A stretch of 64,000 bases of DNA from Rhizobium sp. FKY42 (GTDB lineage: Bacteria; Pseudomonadota; Alphaproteobacteria; Rhizobiales; Rhizobiaceae). The stretch lies in contig NZ_STGA01000016.1 of assembly GCF_005222835.1 (NCBI RefSeq), forward strand, positions 1 through 64,000, in the 5' to 3' direction. This document shows, piece after piece, positions 2,222 through 28,450 of this stretch; the stretch's first letter is position 1; every line of letters starts with the position of its first letter. The translations under genes were made by a program, and so were the position numbers. The notes under the pieces are model-generated. The model was not told where the DNA came from, ran no database searches, and saw only the letters and a program-made list of their open reading frames with translations.

Positions 2222-3727
2222 CTATTCTTCGTCCTGGAACACTTCTTCGCGCTTCTTGCGCACGCTCGGCAGCAGCACGACGACCAGAACACCCAGGGCA
2301 ATCACCAGCAGTGTCGCGCTGATGGGCCTCGTCAGGAACGTCGTCGGATCACCACGCGACAAGATCATGGCGCGGCGCAGGTTTTCCTCCAGAAGCGGCC
2401 CCAGCACGAAGCCGAGCAGAAGGGGCGCCGGTTCGCACCGCAACTTCACGAGCACGTAACCGATGAAGCCGAAGAAGGCGACCGCATAGAGATCGAACAC
2501 GTTCGAGTTGACGCTGTAGACCCCGATGGAGCAGAAAGCCATGATGATGGGGAAGAGCACGTAGTACGGGATCGTCAGAAGCTTCACCCAAAGCCCGATA
2601 AGCGGCAGGTTGAGCACGACCAGCATCAGGTTGCCGATCCACATGGAGGCGATGATGCCCCAGAACAGGGCGGGCTGCTCAGTCGCGACGTTCGGACCGG
2701 GAACGATGCCCTGGATGATCATTGCGCCTACCATCAGCGCCATGACCGGGTTTGCCGGAATGCCAAGCGTCAGAAGTGGAATGAAAGATGTCTGGGCACC
2801 GGCATTGTTGGCCGATTCCGGACCTGCCACACCTGCAATCGCACCATGGCCGAATTCCTCCGGCTTCTTCGAAACACGCTTTTCCACCGTGTAGGATGCA
2901 AAGGCGGCCAGGATGGCACCGCCGCCGGGCAGAATACCGAGCGCCGAACCGATGGCCGTTCCGCGAAGCACCGGCGCAAACATTGCCTTGAAGTCCGCCT
3001 TGGTCGGCAGAAGACCGCTGACCTTCGACATCAGTACGGTTCTGTTCTTCTCGCCTTCAAGATTGCGCAAAATTTCCGCGATACCGAAGACGCCGACAGC
3101 GACGGCAACGAAGTTCAGACCGTCCGAATATTCGCGAATGCCCAGCGTGAAGCGTGGCGTGCCGGAGTAGATGTCTGTTCCCACAAGCCCGAGCAGCAGA
3201 CCGAGAACCACCATGGCAAGCGCCTTGATGATGGAGCCGGATGCAAGCGCGATGGACGAGACGAGGCCGACCACCATCAGCGAGAAATATTCCGCAGCAC
3301 CAAACTGCAAGGCGATCTTTGTCAGCGGTGGCGCGAAGATGGCAACCAGGAAAGTGGAGACCGTACCGGCGAAGAAGGAGCCGAGCGCAGCGATTGCCAG
3401 GGCTGCCCCTGCACGCCCCTTGCGGGCCATCTGGTAGCCGTCGATGGCGGTCACGGCTGACGAGCTTTCGCCCGGCATGTTGATGAGGATGGCCGTGGTG
3501 GAGCCACCATATTGTGCGCCGTAATAGATGCCGGCAAGCATGATGAGCGAGGAAACCGGCTCCAACTGGAACGTGATGGGCAACAGCATCGCAATCGTCG
3601 CGGTCGCACCAATGCCCGGCAGGACGCCGATCAGGGTTCCGAGAAGAACACCGATGAGGCAGAAGAACAGGTTTTCCAGCGACGTTGCAGTGGAGAAACC
3701 AAGGGCAAGATTATTAAAAAGATCCAT
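2222..3727 (-). CDS. tctA: Tripartite tricarboxylate transporter, large membrane subunit TctA
   Basis: Large permease of a TctABC system, a secondary transporter fed by a periplasmic binding protein. The 501-residue length and about 12 hydrophobic segments are typical. The family signatures are clear: LIGVLPGIGATATIAMLLP near residue 40 and the YYGAQYGGSTTAILINMPGE segment near 68-87. It is the last gene of a minus-strand operon, 10 bp after tctB, and is followed by a strong terminator. TctA families carry citrate, other tricarboxylates, glutamate, terephthalate and more, so the substrate cannot be read from this subunit. The adjacent DctB/DctD-like pair suggests substrate-induced control. 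Confidence 0.93.
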   Translation of the reverse strand: MDLFNNLALGFSTATSLENLFFCLIGVLLGTLIGVLPGIGATATIAMLLPITFQLEPVSSLIMLAGIYYGAQYGGSTTAILINMPGESSSAVTAIDGYQMARKGRAGAALAIAALGSFFAGTVSTFLVAIFAPPLTKIALQFGAAEYFSLMVVGLVSSIALASGSIIKALAMVVLGLLLGLVGTDIYSGTPRFTLGIREYSDGLNFVAVAVGVFGIAEILRNLEGEKNRTVLMSKVSGLLPTKADFKAMFAPVLRGTAIGSALGILPGGGAILAAFASYTVEKRVSKKPEEFGHGAIAGVAGPESANNAGAQTSFIPLLTLGIPANPVMALMVGAMIIQGIVPGPNVATEQPALFWGIIASMWIGNLMLVVLNLPLIGLWVKLLTIPYYVLFPIIMAFCSIGVYSVNSNVFDLYAVAFFGFIGYVLVKLRCEPAPLLLGFVLGPLLEENLRRAMILSRGDPTTFLTRPISATLLVIALGVLVVVLLPSVRKKREEVFQDEE

Positions 3728-3737
3728 CGGCTATCTC

Positions 3738-4199
3738 CTAGAAGCCAAGCCAGGGGCCGAAAGTGCGGAATGGAAGGCCAAGGCCGTATTCGAACACCAG
3801 GACTGAAAAGACGGTCAAACCGGCCGAGAGCAGGATCGCCAGAATCGGCGTCATTCTGGATGATGCAAAACTTGCAATAAAGGCCGTCAGGAACAGCGAC
3901 GGCACGAAACCAAGACCGCGAATGGTCAGGCCGAAGAAGATCGCAGACGGCAGGATCAAGAGAAGTCCTCGCCATGCAATCGGACCGATACCCTCATGTT
4001 CGACGCGAAACGCCTGAAACAGAATGATGCCACCCAGCAGCACGAGCGCGCAGGCCAGCAGAAACGGAAAATACCCCGGCCCCATGCGAAACGCGGTGCC
4101 CAGTTCCAGATTCAGCGACTCGAAGCCGAAAAACAGCCCTATGCCAACAAACAGCGCGCCACAGACGGCGTTTGTCTTGTCAAATTCGATAGATTTCAT
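3738..4199 (-). CDS. tctB: Tripartite tricarboxylate transporter, small membrane subunit TctB
   Basis: Small permease subunit of 153 residues with four hydrophobic helices, matching the usual TctB size. The conserved RMGPGYFP segment lies after the first helix. I chose the ATG at 4199 because GGGGAGGC lies just upstream; a longer frame to 4238 has no ribosome site. It sits between tctC (232 bp upstream, across a stem-loop) and tctA (10 bp downstream). TctB is poorly conserved and has no known catalytic role; it forms the membrane complex with TctA. Confidence 0.9.
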   Translation of the reverse strand: MKSIEFDKTNAVCGALFVGIGLFFGFESLNLELGTAFRMGPGYFPFLLACALVLLGGIILFQAFRVEHEGIGPIAWRGLLLILPSAIFFGLTIRGLGFVPSLFLTAFIASFASSRMTPILAILLSAGLTVFSVLVFEYGLGLPFRTFGPWLGF

Positions 4200-4431: not shown

Positions 4432-5412
4432 TCAGTCCGCGTACTGGCCTGCAGCCTTGATCACCGGCTGCCAGCGAGCAATCTCGCTCTCGAGCTTGGC
4501 TTTCAGGGCAGCGGGCGTAGCCTCCGCGTCAGAGGAAGGCACAGTGCCGAGTTCAGCAAAGCGGGCAGCAACATTCGGATCCTTCAGCGCCACTTTCAGC
4601 GCCTTGGACAGACGCTCGTTGACAGCGGCAGGCGTTCCCTTCGGCGTGTAGACGCCGTGCCAGATGCCCACCTCAAAGCCGGCCAATCCTGCTTCGACAG
4701 CCGTCGGTACATCCTTCAGGACGTCAAGACGCTTGGGTGACGTAACGGCATAGGCCTTGATCGTACCGCCTTGAATCTGCTTCGTCGTATTGGTCGTCTG
4801 GTCGCACATGATATCGACCTGACCGCCCAGAAGATCGGTCATCGCAGGACCCGTACCCTTGTAAGGCACCGTGACCAGAGGGGTCTGGATCGCGCTCATG
4901 AACATCATGCCGCAAAGATGCGATGCGGCACCGATACCCGCATTGGCAACCGTCACCTTGTCCTTGTTGGCCTTGGCGAATTCGATCAGACCCTTGAGAT
5001 CCTTTGCCGCCATGTCCTTGCGGGTCACAATGGTCATCGGAACGTCGGTGACGAGACCAACATATTCGAAGTCCTTCAGCGTATCATAGGGCAGCTTGCG
5101 ATAGAGGGTCGCGCTGGTTGCCATGCCAATGTGGTGAAGAAGCAGCGTGTAACCATCCGCATCCGCCTTCGCCACGCGACCGGCACCGAGTGTTCCGCCA
5201 GCACCGCCGACGTTTTCGATGATGATCTGCTGACCGAGATCCTTCGACATGGATTCTGCAACGAGGCGTGCAACCGTATCGGTCGGGCCACCTGCAGAGA
5301 ACGGTACGATCATGGTAATCGACCGCTCAGGGTAACCGGCAGCCTGTGCAACGGACGAGAAAGCAACGGCGGCAAATGCAGTTGCGCAAGCGAGAGCCTT
5401 AAAAAGCTTCAT
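4432..5412 (-). CDS. tctC: Tripartite tricarboxylate transporter, periplasmic binding protein TctC (Bug family)
   Basis: Extracytoplasmic solute receptor of the TctABC system, 326 residues. A signal peptide of about 24 residues ends at VAQA. The mature protein opens with the Bug-family segment YPERSITMIVPFSAGGPTDTVAR, and GGAGGTLGA follows. Bug proteins bind carboxylates through two water-bridged loops and show wide specificity, so citrate is only one option. The start at 5412 is set by GAGGAGG eight bases upstream. It is the first structural gene after the two-component genes; a 212-bp gap upstream holds candidate activator sites. Confidence 0.92.
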   Translation of the reverse strand: MKLFKALACATAFAAVAFSSVAQAAGYPERSITMIVPFSAGGPTDTVARLVAESMSKDLGQQIIIENVGGAGGTLGAGRVAKADADGYTLLLHHIGMATSATLYRKLPYDTLKDFEYVGLVTDVPMTIVTRKDMAAKDLKGLIEFAKANKDKVTVANAGIGAASHLCGMMFMSAIQTPLVTVPYKGTGPAMTDLLGGQVDIMCDQTTNTTKQIQGGTIKAYAVTSPKRLDVLKDVPTAVEAGLAGFEVGIWHGVYTPKGTPAAVNERLSKALKVALKDPNVAARFAELGTVPSSDAEATPAALKAKLESEIARWQPVIKAAGQYAD

Positions 5413-5624: not shown

Positions 5625-6998
5625 TCAGACCTCTTCACCCAGTTCCGCAAGCCCGTCCGGAGACAGAAGTTTCTTGTCGAGACCATACTTCTGCATTTTC
5701 TCGTAAAGCGTCTTCCGGCTGATTCCCAGTTGCTCATAAACGGGCTTCAATGCGCCGCCATTGGCTGAGATTGCAGCGGCGATGATGTTCCGTTCGAACG
5801 CTGCAACACGGTCGGCCAGGCGACTACTTCCCGGCTTGACCAACGCGCCGCCATCACCGGGACGCATGTCGAGGCCGAGGACGAGACGGTCGGCCGCATT
5901 GCGCAGCTCGCGCACGTTTCCCGGCCAGTCCCGTTGCGCAACGGACATGACCACCTCCTGCGGCACATCCATGTCTTCCCGGCCATAGCGAGCCGCTGCC
6001 TCGCGAACGAGCTGCAGAAACAGAAGCGGGATATCTGCCCGGCGTTGTGCCAGTGAGGGGACCCGCAGGGTCACGACGTTCAATCGATATAGGAGATCGG
6101 CGCGGAAGCGGCCCGCGGCAACCTCTGCCTCCAGATCCACCTTGCTGGTCGCGATGAAGCGCACGTCGAGTCCCACCGGCTCATTGGAGCCCAGCCGGGT
6201 GATGACCCTTTCCTGCAGGACGCGCAGGAACTTCGCCTGGAGATCGATAGGCATGGACCCGATTTCGTCCAGTAGGATCGTGCCGCCCCGTCCATGCTCA
6301 AACTTGCCGTAGCGAGGCCGAAGCGCACCGGGAAAAGCTCCTGCCTCATGGCCGAACAGCTCGCTCTCGATCAGGGTTTCAGGCAAGGAGGCGCAATTGA
6401 TGGCGATGAAGGGACGGTTGGCGCGCGGGCTGACATCATGCAGTGCGCGGGCAACCACCTCCTTGCCAACGCCTGTATCACCAATGATCAGGGTATCGGC
6501 ATCGGCTGCACCAATGGCGCGGATTTGATAGCGGAGATCGATCATCACTTGCGTGCGTCCGGGCAGCCGGGTTTCGATATCGTCGCGCTTGCCGGCAACG
6601 GCCCGAAGCCGCCGGTTTTCCAGCACCAGATTGCGGCGGTCCTGGGCACGGCGCAACACGCCAGCCAGATGCGACGTCGTGAATGGTTTCTCGATGAAAT
6701 CATAGGCGCCCTCCCGCATGGCCTTGACGGCCAGTTGCACATCGCCATGACCGGTAACCAGAATGACCGGGATTTCGGCATCCAGTTCGCGGACACGCTG
6801 CATCAGGGTCATGCCGTCCATGCCGGGCATGCGAATGTCGCTGACGATCACGCCCTCGAAGGAATAGCCGATAAGCTCCAGAACCTGTTCGGCACTGGCA
6901 AGGGTCTGGACCTCAAAGCCGGAGAGTTCCAGCGCCTGGGCTGTGGAACGGCGAAGCTCCTCCTCGTCATCCGCCAGTAATACACGCTGCATACTCAC
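5625..6998 (-). CDS. NtrC/DctD-family response regulator of the tct operon
   Basis: Receiver-AAA+-Fis response regulator of 457 residues. The receiver has acidic residues D10/D11, phospho-acceptor D54 and K104. The AAA+ domain has Walker A GDTGVGKE (173-180) and Walker B LLDE (242-245). A Fis-type helix-turn-helix ends the protein (LGISRKTLYEKMQKYGL). The sigma54-contact motif, normally GAFTGA, reads GAFPGA (220-225), with codon CCC where ACC is expected. It overlaps the sensor kinase gene by 4 bp (ATGA), so the two are translationally coupled, and it precedes tctC. It most likely activates tctCBA when the kinase senses the substrate. Confidence 0.88.
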   Translation of the reverse strand: MSMQRVLLADDEEELRRSTAQALELSGFEVQTLASAEQVLELIGYSFEGVIVSDIRMPGMDGMTLMQRVRELDAEIPVILVTGHGDVQLAVKAMREGAYDFIEKPFTTSHLAGVLRRAQDRRNLVLENRRLRAVAGKRDDIETRLPGRTQVMIDLRYQIRAIGAADADTLIIGDTGVGKEVVARALHDVSPRANRPFIAINCASLPETLIESELFGHEAGAFPGALRPRYGKFEHGRGGTILLDEIGSMPIDLQAKFLRVLQERVITRLGSNEPVGLDVRFIATSKVDLEAEVAAGRFRADLLYRLNVVTLRVPSLAQRRADIPLLFLQLVREAAARYGREDMDVPQEVVMSVAQRDWPGNVRELRNAADRLVLGLDMRPGDGGALVKPGSSRLADRVAAFERNIIAAAISANGGALKPVYEQLGISRKTLYEKMQKYGLDKKLLSPDGLAELGEEV

Positions 6999-22995: not shown

Positions 22996-24201
22996 GTGCG
23001 CTATGCATCCATCACCGATCGCCTTGCCGATCTTGGTTCCGGTCGCTGGGCATTGCATCTTGCAGCCCGGCGAATGAAGGCGGAAGGGCAACCCATCATC
23101 GAATTGACGATCGGTGAGCCGGACATGCCTCCGCACGAAGACCTTTTGGCCGAGTGCTCCCGCGCCATGTATGCGGGCCGTACCCGTTATTCCAATGGCC
23201 GGGGCGAACCTGCCGTCCTGAAAGCGCTGGTAAACAAGTATTCCAATCGACGTCCGGGCGTGACGGAAAAGAACTTTCTCTGCTTTCCAGGTACTCAGAC
23301 CGCACTTTTCGCAGTGATGATGGGGCTGGCCGAAGCAGGCGACGGCATATTGGTGGGCGATCCGCTCTACGCGACCTATGAGGGAGTCATCGCCTCCACG
23401 GGCGCGCATATCATCCCGGTGCCACTGCGGCCCGAGAACCGCTTCCATATGCAGGCAGCAGATCTTGAACGCGCCATCACGCCGGAAGCGCGCGTGCTTC
23501 TGCTCAACACGCCGCACAATCCGACCGGCGCCGTCCTCACGGAACAGGAAATCGCAGCAATTGGCGCAGTCTGCCGCAAGCACGACCTCTGGATCGTGTG
23601 CGACGAAGTCTATGAACAGCTGATTTTCGGCGAAGGCTTCGCCTCTCCTTTCGACATGCCGGAGCTAGCGGAACGTACAATTGTTGTTTCGTCGATCTCC
23701 AAATCTCACGCGGCGCCGGGCTTCCGCAGCGGCTGGGCAGCGGGACCGGAAGAGTTCTGCGAAAAGCTTTTACCCGTTTCTGAAACCATGCTGTTCGGCG
23801 TGCAGCCCTTTATCTCCGATATGACGGCGCTGGCCCTGTCACGCCCCTTCGAGACGGCGGGCATCATGCGTGACAATTACAGCCGCCGTGCCGCAATCGT
23901 CGAGAAAACGCTGGCCGGAAGCAACCTCCTGAAACCCATGATGCCGGAAGGCGGCATGTTCGTGGTAGTGGATGTGACGGCGACAGGCCTCGGCGGAGCC
24001 GATTATGCCTGGGAACTGCTGCGCAAGGAGCAGGTGGCCGTCATGCCGGGCTCTTCCTTTGGCCATCAGGCGGCGGGGTTCATCCGGATTTCGCTGACCG
24101 TACCGGATGATGTTCTGGAACAAGCAGTCCGCCGCATGGCAAGCCTTGCAGGACGGCTGGCTGCCATGCCCGCCGAAGAACGGGCGCAACTGGGCGCCTG
24201 A
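22996..24201 (+). CDS. Class I PLP-dependent aminotransferase
   Basis: A 401-residue fold-type I aminotransferase of the aspartate-aminotransferase group. It shows IELTIGEPDMPP near the start, NTPHNPTGAVLT, CDEVYEQLIF, and the PLP-lysine motif SISKSHAAPGFRSGWAAG. GTG at 22996 follows GGAGG by seven bases and is preferred over ATG at 22927. It is divergent from the amino-acid importer, so the importer's substrate is probably deaminated here to a 2-oxo acid. A strong terminator follows. Confidence 0.9.
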   Translation: MRYASITDRLADLGSGRWALHLAARRMKAEGQPIIELTIGEPDMPPHEDLLAECSRAMYAGRTRYSNGRGEPAVLKALVNKYSNRRPGVTEKNFLCFPGTQTALFAVMMGLAEAGDGILVGDPLYATYEGVIASTGAHIIPVPLRPENRFHMQAADLERAITPEARVLLLNTPHNPTGAVLTEQEIAAIGAVCRKHDLWIVCDEVYEQLIFGEGFASPFDMPELAERTIVVSSISKSHAAPGFRSGWAAGPEEFCEKLLPVSETMLFGVQPFISDMTALALSRPFETAGIMRDNYSRRAAIVEKTLAGSNLLKPMMPEGGMFVVVDVTATGLGGADYAWELLRKEQVAVMPGSSFGHQAAGFIRISLTVPDDVLEQAVRRMASLAGRLAAMPAEERAQLGA

Positions 24202-24240
24202 CCACCTGTGACCTTCGACACGGCTCAGCCGGGATTGAGT

Positions 24241-24273
24241 TGACCGGAACATCCATTGTTGCGGTCATTTTTT
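24241..24273 (+). terminator. Terminator after the aminotransferase gene
   Basis: TGACCG...CGGTCA with an inner AAC/GTT pairing and six consecutive T residues, 40 bp past the aminotransferase stop. It separates that gene from the ABC protein gene at 24400. Confidence 0.75.
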
Positions 24274-24300
24274 GCGCTCGCCTTGCATATTGGGTAACCT

Positions 24301-24321
24301 TGACGGATGTCAGGTCCGTCA
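24301..24321. promoter_or_regulatory. Inverted repeat upstream of the SbmA/YddA-like gene
   Basis: TGACGGA-N7-TCCGTCA, perfect 7-bp arms centred 89 bp before the start codon. It has no following T-run and sits after the previous gene's terminator, so an operator is more likely than a terminator. No regulator gene is adjacent, so its protein is unknown. Confidence 0.45.
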
Positions 24322-24399
24322 GCGGCAAGCTTGGTGATTTAGAATTAACACTTAGCCCCCGATAACAGGCGCAGCAGAAGCTTCTGCCCGGACCGCGTA

Positions 24400-26154
24400 A
24401 TGGCAAGTATCGAGACGAAAACATCGCATATAGACCCGGATACGGGTTACCCGCCCTTCACCTTTGGCGGCCAATTGAGAATGATGGCCGGTGCATTCTG
24501 GTCGTCTCAAGTCAGAAACAAGGTACTTTTGCTGATCGTTGGGCTTCTGACGATCATCCTGACCACTGTCTATGCACAATACCGTCTGAACTACTGGAAC
24601 ACGCCGTTCTACAATGCGCTTGAGCAACGTGATCTCGACGGTTTTTTTGAGCAATTGAAGGTATTCTTCATCATCGCCGGTTCTCTGCTTGTGCTGAACG
24701 TCATCCAGGCCTGGCTGAACCAGATGACGGCACTGTTCATGCGCGAAGGATTGACGCGAGACCTCGTCGATCAGTGGATGCATCCGCGAAGGGCTCTAAG
24801 ACTGGCAGCCCTTGGCAAGATCGGCATCAACCCGGATCAGCGGCTTCATGAGGATGCGCGCAATCTCGCGGAACTGACGACGACGCTTGCCATCGGGCTG
24901 GTAAATGCCACCATCCTGCTGGCCAGTTTCATCGGTGTCCTCTGGGTGCTTTCTGCCGATTTTGCCTTTACCTTCAACGGTCGGCAGATCGCCATTCCGG
25001 GCTATATGGTCTGGGCAGCACTACTTTATGCGGGCTCCGCGTCGATGCTCAGCAACTATGTTGGCCGAAAGCTGCCGACACTGAACACGCAGCGCTACTC
25101 ACAGGAAGCCGAGCTACGCTTCACGCTCATGCGGACCAATGAAAACATGTTGGCAATCACGCTAACCAATGGCGAAGACAGCGAGCGGCGGCGGATCCAG
25201 CAGGGCATCAGCGAGGTTCTCGCCATCATCCGGCGGCTGGCCTTCGCCTATACCAATCTGACATGGGTTTCTGCCGGGTTCGGCTGGCTCACCACCATCG
25301 CACCGATCCTGATTGCGGCACCGGTCTATTTCAGTGGCGGTCTTTCCTTTGGCGGTCTTATGATGGCGGTCGGTGCGTTCAATCAGGTCAACACGGCGCT
25401 GCGCTGGTATATCGATAACTTCCGTCCCATTGCCGACTGGAAAGCCGCTCTCTATCGCGTTTCGGTGTTTCGAAGGGCATTGATCGAACTCGACAATGAG
25501 CATGCAGGACCGGAAACACTGAGGGTGGAACAGGATGAGGCCGAGCAACTGACCCTTAAAGATCTGCTCCTGTCGCCAAGACCCAACAGCTCCGGCAGCG
25601 ACCGTGGGCTGCGGCTCGATGGAGAATATGTGATCTTTCCCGGTGAACGGATCATGGTCAACGGCGATCCCCGGGCCAACCGTCGCCTCTTGTTCCAGGC
25701 GATTGCGGGGCTGTGGCCCTGGGGCAAGGGAACGATCCGCCTGCCGAAATCCGGCTCGATGCTTCTGGTCCCGCAGAAGGGCTTTTTTCCGGACGCAACT
25801 CTGGAAGAAGTTCTCACCTACCCGATGCCGGCCGCTACCTACACGCCGGACGCGATGGGCAATGCCCTTGAAACAGTCGGCCTTGGCCGATTGACGGAAA
25901 AGTTGTCGGCTCGCGAAAGATGGGAGCGTGTCCTGCAGGAAGATGATCAGATGCGCCTTCGCATCGCAAATGCGCTGCTGGTCAAGCCGCGATGGATCGT
26001 TCTTGATGATGCATTCGAGGCGCTGGAAACGGAGACCCAGTCAGAACTCCTTGCAATCCTGAATATGATGTCGGAGGCAACAGTCATTTATGTCGGACGG
26101 TCAGAGACATTTCTGCCAAGTTCAACACGACTGATCCATCTCCAGCCCTATTAA
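24400..26154 (+). CDS. SbmA/BacA/YddA-like ABC membrane protein with degenerate ATPase domain
   Basis: A 584-residue half-transporter. The membrane part, about 40-345, matches the SbmA/BacA fold (YRLNYWNTPFYNALEQRD near 61-78; RLHEDARNLAE near 148). A linker leads to a nucleotide-binding-domain-shaped C-terminus, but each ATPase motif is altered. The Walker A position reads GDPRANRRL (422-430), with no Gly-Lys-Ser/Thr. The Q-loop glutamine is kept (PQKGFFP). The signature position reads VLQEDDQMRL, Walker B reads WIVLDDAFEALE, and the switch histidine is Arg (VGRSE). Family members with working domains read GESGxGKS, LSxGEQQR, DEATSALD and VGHR. Transport driven by proton motive force, as for SbmA/BacA, is the likely consequence; the reading frame is intact. 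Confidence 0.85.
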   Translation: MASIETKTSHIDPDTGYPPFTFGGQLRMMAGAFWSSQVRNKVLLLIVGLLTIILTTVYAQYRLNYWNTPFYNALEQRDLDGFFEQLKVFFIIAGSLLVLNVIQAWLNQMTALFMREGLTRDLVDQWMHPRRALRLAALGKIGINPDQRLHEDARNLAELTTTLAIGLVNATILLASFIGVLWVLSADFAFTFNGRQIAIPGYMVWAALLYAGSASMLSNYVGRKLPTLNTQRYSQEAELRFTLMRTNENMLAITLTNGEDSERRRIQQGISEVLAIIRRLAFAYTNLTWVSAGFGWLTTIAPILIAAPVYFSGGLSFGGLMMAVGAFNQVNTALRWYIDNFRPIADWKAALYRVSVFRRALIELDNEHAGPETLRVEQDEAEQLTLKDLLLSPRPNSSGSDRGLRLDGEYVIFPGERIMVNGDPRANRRLLFQAIAGLWPWGKGTIRLPKSGSMLLVPQKGFFPDATLEEVLTYPMPAATYTPDAMGNALETVGLGRLTEKLSARERWERVLQEDDQMRLRIANALLVKPRWIVLDDAFEALETETQSELLAILNMMSEATVIYVGRSETFLPSSTRLIHLQPY

Positions 26155-26260: not shown

Positions 26261-28450
26261 ATGCCGGGCAAGCAACATGGACAAGGGCAGTCACGTCTGC
26301 AAAGGAAACTGATCGAAGAGTTCCGGCTGGGCGATTCGAATCCCGATTTGTTTTCCCGCTCCCTGTGCGACTTCATTGCAAAATTCTGCAGCGCTCCGAT
26401 CGCCTACATTTCCTTGATCGATGACAAGACGCAGATCATCCAGGCAAGCGTCGGCGCAGATCTGAAAAAGATGCCGCGCGAGGATAGCATCTGCAATCTG
26501 ACCGTCGAAGGGGGCAGCCCTCTCGTCATCCTCGACACCGAGACCGATGACAGGGTGAAGAATCTTCCGATCGTGACGGGTGATACTGCGATACGCTTCT
26601 ATGCCGGCGCTCCGTTGAAAACCTTCAGCGGAGAGACGATGGGCGCGCTCTGCATTGCCGACACCAGCGCGAGAACGGAATTTTCAAGCTCGGATTACGA
26701 TCGTCTGCAAGAGGCCGCACGCCTGTTGATGAACCACTATGAAGAGCGTCGCGAGGGCTTTCCGGGCCAGACCGCCGCAAGCTTCATCAATGCGACCGAA
26801 CTCTCCATGATCTCGGTGGATCATCAGGGCCGCATCCAGTTCGTCAACAACAGCCTTCTCAAATTGTTGGGCTATGAGCGTGGCCAATTGATCGGGAGAG
26901 ACGTTGAAATCATCATCCCAATGCGGTTTCGTGCCTCCCATCATAAGAGTTTCGAACGACTGTCCGATAAGAAAGGTCCGCTGCTTGATGGCAAGACGGT
27001 AGAGGTGTTCGCACGGCGGAGCGATGGAAGCGAGATCCCGATCGAGATCACGCTTTCTGCCTGGAACGACGATGGCGGAATGGGCGTCGGCGCCATCATC
27101 AACGACATTTCTGAACGTCGGGAACGCGACAAGCGTCTTCTGCGGCTTGCCAATCAGGATCCCGTCACAGGCTTCAACACCCGCCATCGCTTCGATGAGC
27201 TTATCGATCAGCATTGCCAGACACATGTTGCAGGTACACTCTTGCTGATCGAACTCGATGGCCTGAAGGAAACGGGAGACCGGCTCGGCCAGGACATATT
27301 CGATACCTTGCTCCAAAATATCGCCGTGCGCCTGCCGCGCATCCTGACCAAGGAAAGTGTTATCGCAAGGCTTGGCGAGGAACAGATTGGTCTGCTCGTC
27401 CAGTCGGCGCAAACCGTTGAAGAAGCGCGAACTCTCGCTCAGGCGGCCATGGACGAGCTTGTTTTACCCTTTGACCTGGGCTCGATGAAGCTGAAGCTCG
27501 GAGCTGCGATCGGTTGGGCCTTGCGTCAGGACACGACAAATGCGCGCGAGTGGCTAGCCAACGCCGATTTTGCACTGGCGCATGCACGAAAGGCCGGCGG
27601 CAACAGCTGCGTGGCCTATGAAGGACATGTCGAACAGACATCGCAGCAGCGCCGTGTGGCTCGAGACGAACTGTTGGAAGCGCTGCGCAAGCAGCAATTC
27701 GTGCTGCACTACCAGCCCCAGGTACTCCTGGAAACCGGAGAACTATCGGGCATCGAAGCCCTGATCCGCTGGCAGCATCCTGAAAAAGGCCTCCTGATGC
27801 CCGGGCATTTTCTGCCGGCCCTGGAACAGAGCGCCATCAGTCTCGATGTCGGCGCATGGGTGTTGAACGAGGCTATCCGTCAACTTGGCACATGGGTCGC
27901 CAAGGGTCTGCCTCCGATCAAGATGGGCATGAACCTGTTTCCGTCGCAGATGCGGGGAAGCGATCTTCCGGCACAGGTCAGTCAGCTCTCACGCGATCAT
28001 GGCGTCGATCCACGCTGGCTGGAGTTGGAAATCACGGAGACCGCAACGCTTGAAGACGAAGGTAGATCCTTCGAACTGATCAGTGAATTGCGCGAACTGG
28101 GCATCGGCATCGCATTCGACGATTTCGGCACCGGCTATGCCTCGCTCGGTTCGCTCCAGCGCTATCCGATTACGACGCTGAAGATCGACCGAGGCTTTGT
28201 GCGCGATCTTCTGACACGCCAGAGAGATTCGGCAATCACACGCGCGCTTATCATGCTCAGCCATGATCTCGGCCTGAAGACGATTGCGGAGGGCGTCGAA
28301 ACGCTGGATCAGCAGATTGCGCTTCGCTTGATGGGTTGCGATTACGGCCAGGGTTATCTCTACGGAAAAGCCCTTCCCGCGGCAGATATCGAGGCCATGC
28401 TTGCCTCGCGCGCCAAGCCGCCAAGCAAACAGGCCCGCCGAAAAACCTGA
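26261..28450 (+). CDS. GAF-PAS-GGDEF-EAL cyclic-di-GMP phosphodiesterase
   Basis: A 729-residue soluble signalling protein. GAF covers about 20-160, PAS about 172-290 and GGDEF about 293-455. The EAL domain, about 465-715, has the key motifs: IEALIRW (EAL at 499-501), ELEITET, AFDDFGTGYASL and IAEGVET. The GGDEF active site reads LGEEQ (371-375), so cyclase activity is unlikely and the domain may bind GTP or act as a regulator. The protein should hydrolyse c-di-GMP in response to a ligand of the GAF or PAS domain. It stands alone and is convergent with the fixL-like gene, 22 bp apart. Confidence 0.88.
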   Translation: MPGKQHGQGQSRLQRKLIEEFRLGDSNPDLFSRSLCDFIAKFCSAPIAYISLIDDKTQIIQASVGADLKKMPREDSICNLTVEGGSPLVILDTETDDRVKNLPIVTGDTAIRFYAGAPLKTFSGETMGALCIADTSARTEFSSSDYDRLQEAARLLMNHYEERREGFPGQTAASFINATELSMISVDHQGRIQFVNNSLLKLLGYERGQLIGRDVEIIIPMRFRASHHKSFERLSDKKGPLLDGKTVEVFARRSDGSEIPIEITLSAWNDDGGMGVGAIINDISERRERDKRLLRLANQDPVTGFNTRHRFDELIDQHCQTHVAGTLLLIELDGLKETGDRLGQDIFDTLLQNIAVRLPRILTKESVIARLGEEQIGLLVQSAQTVEEARTLAQAAMDELVLPFDLGSMKLKLGAAIGWALRQDTTNAREWLANADFALAHARKAGGNSCVAYEGHVEQTSQQRRVARDELLEALRKQQFVLHYQPQVLLETGELSGIEALIRWQHPEKGLLMPGHFLPALEQSAISLDVGAWVLNEAIRQLGTWVAKGLPPIKMGMNLFPSQMRGSDLPAQVSQLSRDHGVDPRWLELEITETATLEDEGRSFELISELRELGIGIAFDDFGTGYASLGSLQRYPITTLKIDRGFVRDLLTRQRDSAITRALIMLSHDLGLKTIAEGVETLDQQIALRLMGCDYGQGYLYGKALPAADIEAMLASRAKPPSKQARRKT

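Follow-up and report, generated by a model that had tools for sequence, protein, structure and literature searches.

How can a protein built like a half-transporter of the ATP-binding cassette (ABC) type be maintained when its nucleotide-binding domain (NBD) has lost the residues of an ATPase, and what might power it? The gene that raises this question lies at 24400-26154 on the forward strand of the window, the 64,000-nucleotide stretch of Rhizobium sp. FKY42 analysed here (contig NZ_STGA01000016.1, positions 1 to 64,000). It is a single open reading frame with an ATG start, 584 codons and no internal stop, is matched in two genomes of the genus by relatives 97% and 95% identical to it, and encodes a half-transporter with a pseudo-NBD of the ExsE type. 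We consider it probable that this protein of 584 amino acids (aa), a member of the ExsE family, forms a homodimer of YddA/ABCD4/Rv1819c-type half-transporters, works without ATP hydrolysis, driven by a gradient, and retains its pseudo-NBD as a docked clamp with a structural or regulatory role. The homodimer, the absent hydrolysis, the gradient-driven transport and the salt bridges of the clamp are all features that we infer from the observations below.

The predicted architecture is that of an ABC half-transporter (all features are on the forward strand). The transmembrane domain (TMD), residues 22-363 (24463-25488), comprises an elbow helix and membrane helices, placed by AlphaFold2 at residues 22-35, 39-76, 79-126, 145-185, 202-222/225-248, 259-311 and 317-363. 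It matches ABC_membrane_2 (PF06472, residues 36-310) with 99.6 bits, and the protein also matches SbmA_BacA with 76.7 bits. The pseudo-NBD, residues 375-583 (25522-26148), scores 17.4 bits against ABC_tran (PF00005), below the cut-off of 25, and only 13 of the 57 proteins in the AlphaFold2 alignment match that family at 0.001. The model made from these 57 sequences has a mean predicted local confidence (pLDDT) of 81 and a predicted template modelling score (pTM) of 0.71, with most of the NBD at pLDDT 85-93. Whole-chain structural matches are Rv1819c (6tqe, TM score 0.84, Foldseek) and ABCD1/3/4; by sequence, too, the best solved relative is Rv1819c (143 bits), with ABCD4 next. The predicted fold and the whole-chain matches argue that the C-terminal domain is NBD-shaped, in agreement with a sequence-only reading of this DNA, which had described such a domain devoid of ATPase residues. 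An ABC_membrane_2-type TMD is thus fused to a predicted NBD fold, as in the active type IV ABC transporters YddA, BclA and Rv1819c.

The residues of the old ATP site are largely replaced. In the Walker A position VNGDPRANRRLL (residues 420-431, 25657-25692) the protein reads GDPRANRR in place of GxxGxGK(S/T), with Gly427 changed to Asn, Lys428 to Arg and Ser/Thr429 to Arg. An acidic stretch, LQEDDQ, takes the place of LSGGQ at the signature position WERVLQEDDQMRL (residues 508-520, 25921-25959). Walker B RWIVLDDAFEALE (residues 531-543, 25990-26028) retains Asp536, and its catalytic Glu537 is Asp; in the switch region IYVGRSE (residues 563-569, 26086-26106) His567 has become Arg. The Q-loop VPQKGFF (residues 457-463, 25768-25788) retains Gln459. 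Every motif letter quoted in the sequence-only reading is in its place and the frame is open; its statement that all ATPase motifs are degenerate holds for Walker A, the signature, the catalytic Glu and the switch His, but is too broad for the Q-loop Gln and the first Asp of Walker B.

Replacements of this kind might mark an ordinary pseudogene in the course of being lost, and broken relatives do exist: at three loci (L149, L145 and L138, in genomes G030, G042 and G112) the frame stops short or is interrupted within the membrane part or the NBD, and L146 is also broken. The distribution of the altered letters is of another kind. Matches that are family members or paralogues occur in 93 of 200 kin genomes (E 1e-30), stop-free in all but a few of the listed loci, and a species-collection scan confirmed 280 relatives, the best 80 of which were used. 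From 111 loci with a match, 94 rows remained in the motif alignment after identical cores were merged; the motif counts exclude the short or distant rows L149, L159, L174, L175, L176, L177 and L180, and a second alignment was made without L002, L004, L145 and L161. Among the 86 family rows that lack the Walker A lysine (Lys-less rows), none has a full Walker A, one has the signature Ser and Gly (L028), four have the catalytic Glu and one has the switch His (L077); the corresponding counts in 35 intact paralogues are 35, 35, 33 and 33. An intact Walker A in close orthologues, which would imply recent decay, was looked for in the 78 family rows with more than 53% identity to the 584-aa protein: the Walker A place is present in 76 of them, lysine stands there in none, and the closest Lys-bearing row (L122) has 52.5% identity. 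Because the lysine is absent from all 76 of these NBD-bearing rows, the motif loss is, on this alignment, not recent decay.

The substitution rates in both domains are low. For Lys-less close relatives (28 disjoint pairs) the median ratio of nonsynonymous to synonymous substitutions (dN/dS) is 0.047 in the membrane part and 0.107 in the pseudo-NBD (maximum 0.328). Medians for the membrane part and NBD are 0.049 and 0.103 in family members that keep the lysine (Lys-keeping members, 5 pairs), and 0.054 and 0.081 in intact paralogues (8 pairs). These values are simple Nei-Gojobori counts over same-group pairs that are 80% identical or more, with dS of 0.1-1.5, greedily made disjoint. The gene itself, compared with its 97% identical relative L009, gives 0.048 and 0.105. 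In a first table of all pairs with dS below 1 the median for the pseudo-NBD was 0.61 and the highest value 1.66; as that table contained saturated distant pairs, it was used only for the nearest pairs. By these counts the pseudo-NBD is under purifying selection, and the question posed in the sequence-only reading, whether the altered motifs are shared by relatives under such selection, is answered in the affirmative. With low dN/dS in both domains, and with the same altered letters throughout the clade, we regard ordinary decay as scarcely credible.

The old ATP site looks rewritten rather than abandoned. Across 84 Lys-less rows, Arg occupies the Walker A Lys position in 83 and the switch in 81, and Asp or Glu occupies the second signature glycine (Gly515) in 83; position 427 is Asn or Asp in 80, and position 429 is His or Arg in 79. 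Conservation is higher in the columns of the old site than elsewhere in the pseudo-NBD (mean top-letter share 0.74 vs 0.58 in 56 thinned rows, Mann-Whitney p 0.0009, a value that is only a guide because the rows are related), and the new letters Arg428, Leu430, Glu540, Tyr564 and Arg567 are nearly fixed, at 95-98%. Judged from the alignment, the same altered letters in dozens of relatives are far beyond chance. The charges follow the same division into groups: over residues 513-516 of the signature, Lys-less rows average a net charge of -2.73, Lys-keeping members -2.32 and intact paralogues -1.00; at the switch the three means are +0.94, +0.74 and 0. Since the acid is already present at the signature of Lys-keeping rows, the alignment suggests that signature acidity arose before the Lys-to-Arg swap. 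An apparent trade between residues 428 and 459 is also visible in the family alignment, where a Walker A Lys mostly goes with a Q-loop Arg and a Walker A Arg mostly with a Q-loop Gln; on the tree, Gln would have had to come back or to be lost several times in parallel.

In ABC dimers, Walker A and the switch lie opposite the signature contributed by the partner subunit. This facing geometry and the charge pattern make a nucleotide-free salt bridge between the pseudo-NBDs a natural guess: each subunit probably presents its Walker A and switch arginines to the partner's former signature, now acidic, and the two pseudo-NBDs would pair without nucleotide through such bridges. The same site could be read differently, as one that binds nucleotide without hydrolysing it and, as a sensor, switches a gradient-driven transporter on and off. 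Gln459 (77 of 86 Lys-less rows) and Asp536 (80 of 86) are retained, the predicted fold is intact and the old site columns are conserved, all as a sensor would have it. Yet the Asn or Asp at 427, the Arg at 428 and the His or Arg at 429 should fill the phosphate pocket, and the signature and switch are gone; we consider a sensor unlikely, if deserving of some weight.

The position of the protein within its family indicates how such a domain may have arisen. Trees were built from the membrane part alone, so the motifs cannot shape their topology. The ExsE family forms one clade (50 rows, support 100/98) in a tree of 67 hand-picked rows. Its deepest branches are L146 and L141, and L141 is nearly canonical (GESGSGKST, PQRPY, LSLGQ, MDEATSALD, AHR; ABC_tran 72.1 bits). 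Beyond L141, the signature Ser/Gly and the switch His are gone in nearly all rows, the exceptions being L028 for the signature and L077 for the switch. Of 37 Lys-keeping members, mostly of the Mesorhizobium/Ensifer type where named, 25 have a full Walker A and 30 the catalytic Glu, and only 2 have the Q-loop Gln; an Ensifer adhaerens group retains the aligned Lys inside a broken Walker A. In the Rhizobium/Agrobacterium/Neorhizobium part, which includes the 584-aa protein, Walker A is lost and the Q-loop Gln is present. On the quick tree, four changes between Lys and not-Lys are required. The quick tree was thinned at 95% and the careful tree at 88 or 97%. Long-branch warnings attach to outgroup rows in both, as well as to NBD-less rows of the second clade described below in the quick tree and to early-branching rows in the careful one. 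In the earliest-branching locus, L146 (G153:C1), pieces of the NBD lie at 5018-5275 and 6171-6629 with about 900 bases between them, perhaps an insertion.

The far end of the family has no NBD at all. A membrane-part scan of 394 Rhizobiaceae genomes gave matches in 152, and among the matches listed 17 frames end just past the membrane part. Sixteen of these genes were fetched and their ends checked, and in all 16 a stop codon follows the last aligned membrane residue by no more than about 16 residues. A flank of 3 to 5 kb follows in 13 of 14 loci (the set without L147 and L148), the fourteenth, L187, having only 138 bases; no NBD remnant was found in the fetched DNA at 14 of the 16 loci. In the other two, L147 and L195, the only weak matches are to a distant ABC ATPase, which in L147 stands behind branched-chain amino-acid transporter-like genes. 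Nor was a stand-alone ExsE-type NBD found in the 16 genomes at E 1e-12 (in four of them, 150 of 153-183 candidates were scored). An orphan NBD supplied from elsewhere was considered and set aside: the 12 matches in the 16 genomes all lie within frames of 572-714 aa, at 29-36% identity.

On the careful tree (92 rows, which retain all 6 of 6 and 7 of 10 NBD-less rows of the two groups) the NBD-less genes fall into two clades. The first, NA (6 rows, support 100/100), lies inside the Walker-A-keeping part of the family, and the second, NB (7 rows, 100/99), inside the Lys-less part. A single origin of NBD loss costs 43.8 log units and is rejected (p of the approximately unbiased test, p-AU, 0.024), in a test chosen after the tree had been seen and with long branches in NB. 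By these trees the NBD was lost twice independently, and neither loss is beside SbmA/BacA. The dN/dS values of 0.010-0.062 in NB and 0.18-0.39 in NA (pairs of 73-90% identity) point to strong constraint on NB and weaker constraint on NA. Taken as the trees present it, the family grades from one nearly intact member via partly eroded NBDs to NBD-less genes.

The same comparison is informative about coupling between the domains. Residues 245-262 (RTNENMLAITLTNGEDSE, 25132-25185), with a short helix at 250-255 in the AlphaFold2 model, form coupling helix 2, which we take to be an EAA-like motif that grips the NBD. The 584-aa protein has Glu248, Gly258, Glu259 and Glu262 all in place. Whether their NBD is dead or intact, 157 of 160 NBD-bearing rows carry Glu248, vs none of the 16 NBD-less rows; for Glu262 the counts are 158 of 160 vs 2 of 16 (over related rows). 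Because Glu248 is retained with the NBD and gone without it, the dead domain is presumably still gripped, and the grip would erode after NBD loss; the pseudo-NBD of the 584-aa protein seems to be still docked to its membrane part.

A docked but dead domain might instead be the poor half of a heterodimer in which an intact ABC half-transporter supplies the ATPase activity. Heterodimers with a single poor site are common among ABC exporters, and some relatives of the 584-aa protein do occur with an intact paralogue. However, all 68 first-look candidates in the Rhizobium sp. FKY42 genome were scored and no intact family member was among them, only BacA and a broken fragment; this count covers the family, not other ABC half-transporters. 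Among the 55 same-genus genomes with a match, 33 have a single one (six candidates scored per genome). Moreover, an active site needs Walker A from one subunit and the signature from the other, and the 584-aa protein has neither. We therefore regard a heterodimer as quite improbable. The sole canonical YddA-type paralogue found in Rhizobium sp. FKY42 is a remnant (L161, positions 2905-3890 on the reverse strand of G000:C18) consisting of two short open pieces, one with GESGSGKSTL, and adjoins a peroxiredoxin-like gene.

If ATP is not hydrolysed, the obvious model for another energy source is SbmA/BacA (SLiPT). The membrane fold is related (VIA-align Z 21.8-22.3 over 307-309 residues), and SbmA and BacA work ATP-free. 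According to PMC13316013, they are without an NBD and coupling helix and have an extra TM0 and a full glutamate ladder (E193, E203, E269, E276, E287 and E378 in SbmA). The 584-aa protein differs on each count that we compared: a predicted NBD fold and a coupling helix are both present, and the ladder equivalents read E, T, N, E, N and D. It scores 54.6 bits against the NCBIfam SbmA equivalog, below the cut-off of 492, whereas a separate true BacA encoded in the Rhizobium sp. FKY42 genome scores 650.2 (and 474.7 bits to PF05992). The NBD-less genes were likewise rejected as SbmA members, at 43.9-68 bits in the 4 of 16 tested. On the membrane-part tree SbmA of E. coli and BacA of Rhizobium sp. 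FKY42 fall outside the family clade, on a separate branch, which does not uphold the direct SbmA/BacA link of the sequence-only reading. Its idea of an intermediate survives in the general sense that the family has members without an NBD, but not as an ancestor of SbmA, a parallel route being indicated instead.

A proton mechanism on that analogy fares no better. The E203 place is never acidic in the family, and only one of 85 Lys-less rows and one of 35 Lys-keeping rows has an acid at the E287 place. The SbmA-type ladder is incomplete alike in Lys-less, Lys-keeping and NBD-less members (of the latter, L147 and L148 were compared first and the others in a separate comparison), and only 2 of the 10 rows of clade NB have an acid at the E193 place. 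Because the 584-aa protein has no acid at the E203, E269 and E287 equivalents, an SbmA-type proton mechanism is without support from its residues; a different gradient route may still be used. BacA of Rhizobium sp. FKY42 has His at ladder position 269. At a 60% threshold, NA and NB share no newly gained acidic residue within the membrane helices; an acid does stand at position 186 in 4 of 6 NA and 6 of 10 NB rows, but this position lies in a loop of the model.

A dead NBD combined with an incomplete proton ladder would also fit a membrane scaffold, receptor or lipid-handling protein that is no longer a transporter, and no conserved operon partner points to a substrate. On the other hand, the membrane part is the most constrained region (median dN/dS 0.047), and a protein from Phyllobacterium zundukense that is classed as ExsE gave a bacA mutant back part of its gentamicin sensitivity, as reported in PMC12003926, although it could not be shown to be an orthologue of the 584-aa protein. 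We think such a role improbable.

We accordingly return to a transporter that is independent of ATP hydrolysis. The membrane part of the homodimer would cycle or conduct alone, driven by an ion or substrate gradient, and the C-terminal pseudo-NBD may stay docked as a clamp, structural or regulatory in role. Several points weigh against this. The glutamate ladder is incomplete and, as far as the residues indicate, no proton route is evident. The clamp idea draws on alignment charges and a monomer model. The retained Q-loop Gln and Walker B Asp make some nucleotide contact possible. The coupling motif is only partly eroded in NA, with Glu259 and Ile253 in 6 of 6 rows each; Glu259 is in 0 of 10 rows of NB, where coupling-helix erosion appears from the alignment to be further advanced than in NA. 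Finally, the ratio of pseudo-NBD to membrane-part dN/dS is about 2.4 in Lys-less pairs vs 1.7 in intact paralogue pairs, and on this basis the dead domain seems to be somewhat, not much, more relaxed.

More tentatively, and as a possibility that we do not favour strongly, we hypothesize that living members of the ExsE family form a series that leads from an ATP-driven pump to an ATP-free transporter, which would repeat an SbmA-like route independently and with another gradient coupling. In such a series the signature and switch His would be lost first, the change of the Walker A Lys to Arg would make the clamp, and the NBD would then be discarded in two lineages, with erosion of the coupling helix. 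PMC13316013 (2026) proposes that SbmA-like secondary transporters arose from a YddA-like ABC transporter by loss of the NBD and coupling helix, a proposal resting there on a tree and a few cases of separate TMD and NBD genes. The ExsE family would add two further NBD losses, which the tree sets apart from SbmA/BacA, each with erosion of the coupling-helix motif and with steps still visible in one family. Its matched natural proteins, nearly intact, half eroded, dead and NBD-less, offer a direct test set for the switch from ATP to another energy source. The name 'ABC transporter ATP-binding protein/permease', carried for example by a 55% identical relative in Rhizobium sp. NLR16a, need not mean an ATPase.

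Several known systems resemble the 584-aa protein in part. The S. meliloti relative at L225, in what reads as the pSymB exo/exs region, is a family member with 47.7% identity over 95% of the query; we take it to be ExsE from the gene order exsH-exsG-exsF-exsE-queE/queC-exsA-exoB, which our reading of L225 fits. Like the 584-aa protein it is a one-piece TMD-NBD that has lost the signature and switch (LGDDEQ, IKIGRTP). In contrast, Walker A (GDPRAGKT) and the catalytic Glu (VIDE) are still there and the Q-loop Gln is gone (PRAPY), the reverse of the 584-aa protein. In PMC12003926, ExsE is reported to be involved in long-chain fatty acid transport, and P. zundukense ExsE in S. meliloti bacA mutants gives intermediate complementation for gentamicin and little to none for NCR247. 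Between the P. zundukense plasmid match (H81) and S. meliloti ExsE the identity is only 31%. We found no account of degenerate or missing NBDs in ExsE in the open-access literature that was searched.

Rv1819c of Mycobacterium tuberculosis, like BclA ATP-driven, is the closest solved relative. Its solved chain differs: Walker A is normal, the signature reads LSPGEQ, and the catalytic Glu is replaced by Gly, presumably an engineered change. The protein has all motifs of functional ABC transporters, according to PMC3603451. Human ABCD4 and ABCD1/3, the next best relatives by sequence (ABCD4) and fold, are ATP-driven and have other substrates and compartments. E. coli YddA, likened here by description alone, shares an incomplete glutamate ladder, being without E203 and E287, but is treated as a full-length ABC protein (PMC13316013).

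The genes on either side of 24400-26154 are separate, an aminotransferase-like gene ending at 24201 and a PAS/GGDEF/EAL-like gene starting at 26261 (names from our reading of the sequence). In the interval 24202-24399 a scan found no sigma-70-type promoter, and by eye there is no clear ribosome-binding site before the ATG at 24400; promoter and terminator scans gave signal no greater than in shuffles. Operon context was rejected as a clue to the substrate, the neighbours not being conserved. Matches to the gene downstream of 24400-26154 occur at 8 of 80 loci, on the downstream side in 6 and, at 32% identity, upstream in 2. A divergent gene lies upstream in 33 of the 80 loci, starting about 3.7 kb upstream of the match; in L050 it encodes 1108 aa and has a transglutaminase-type look.
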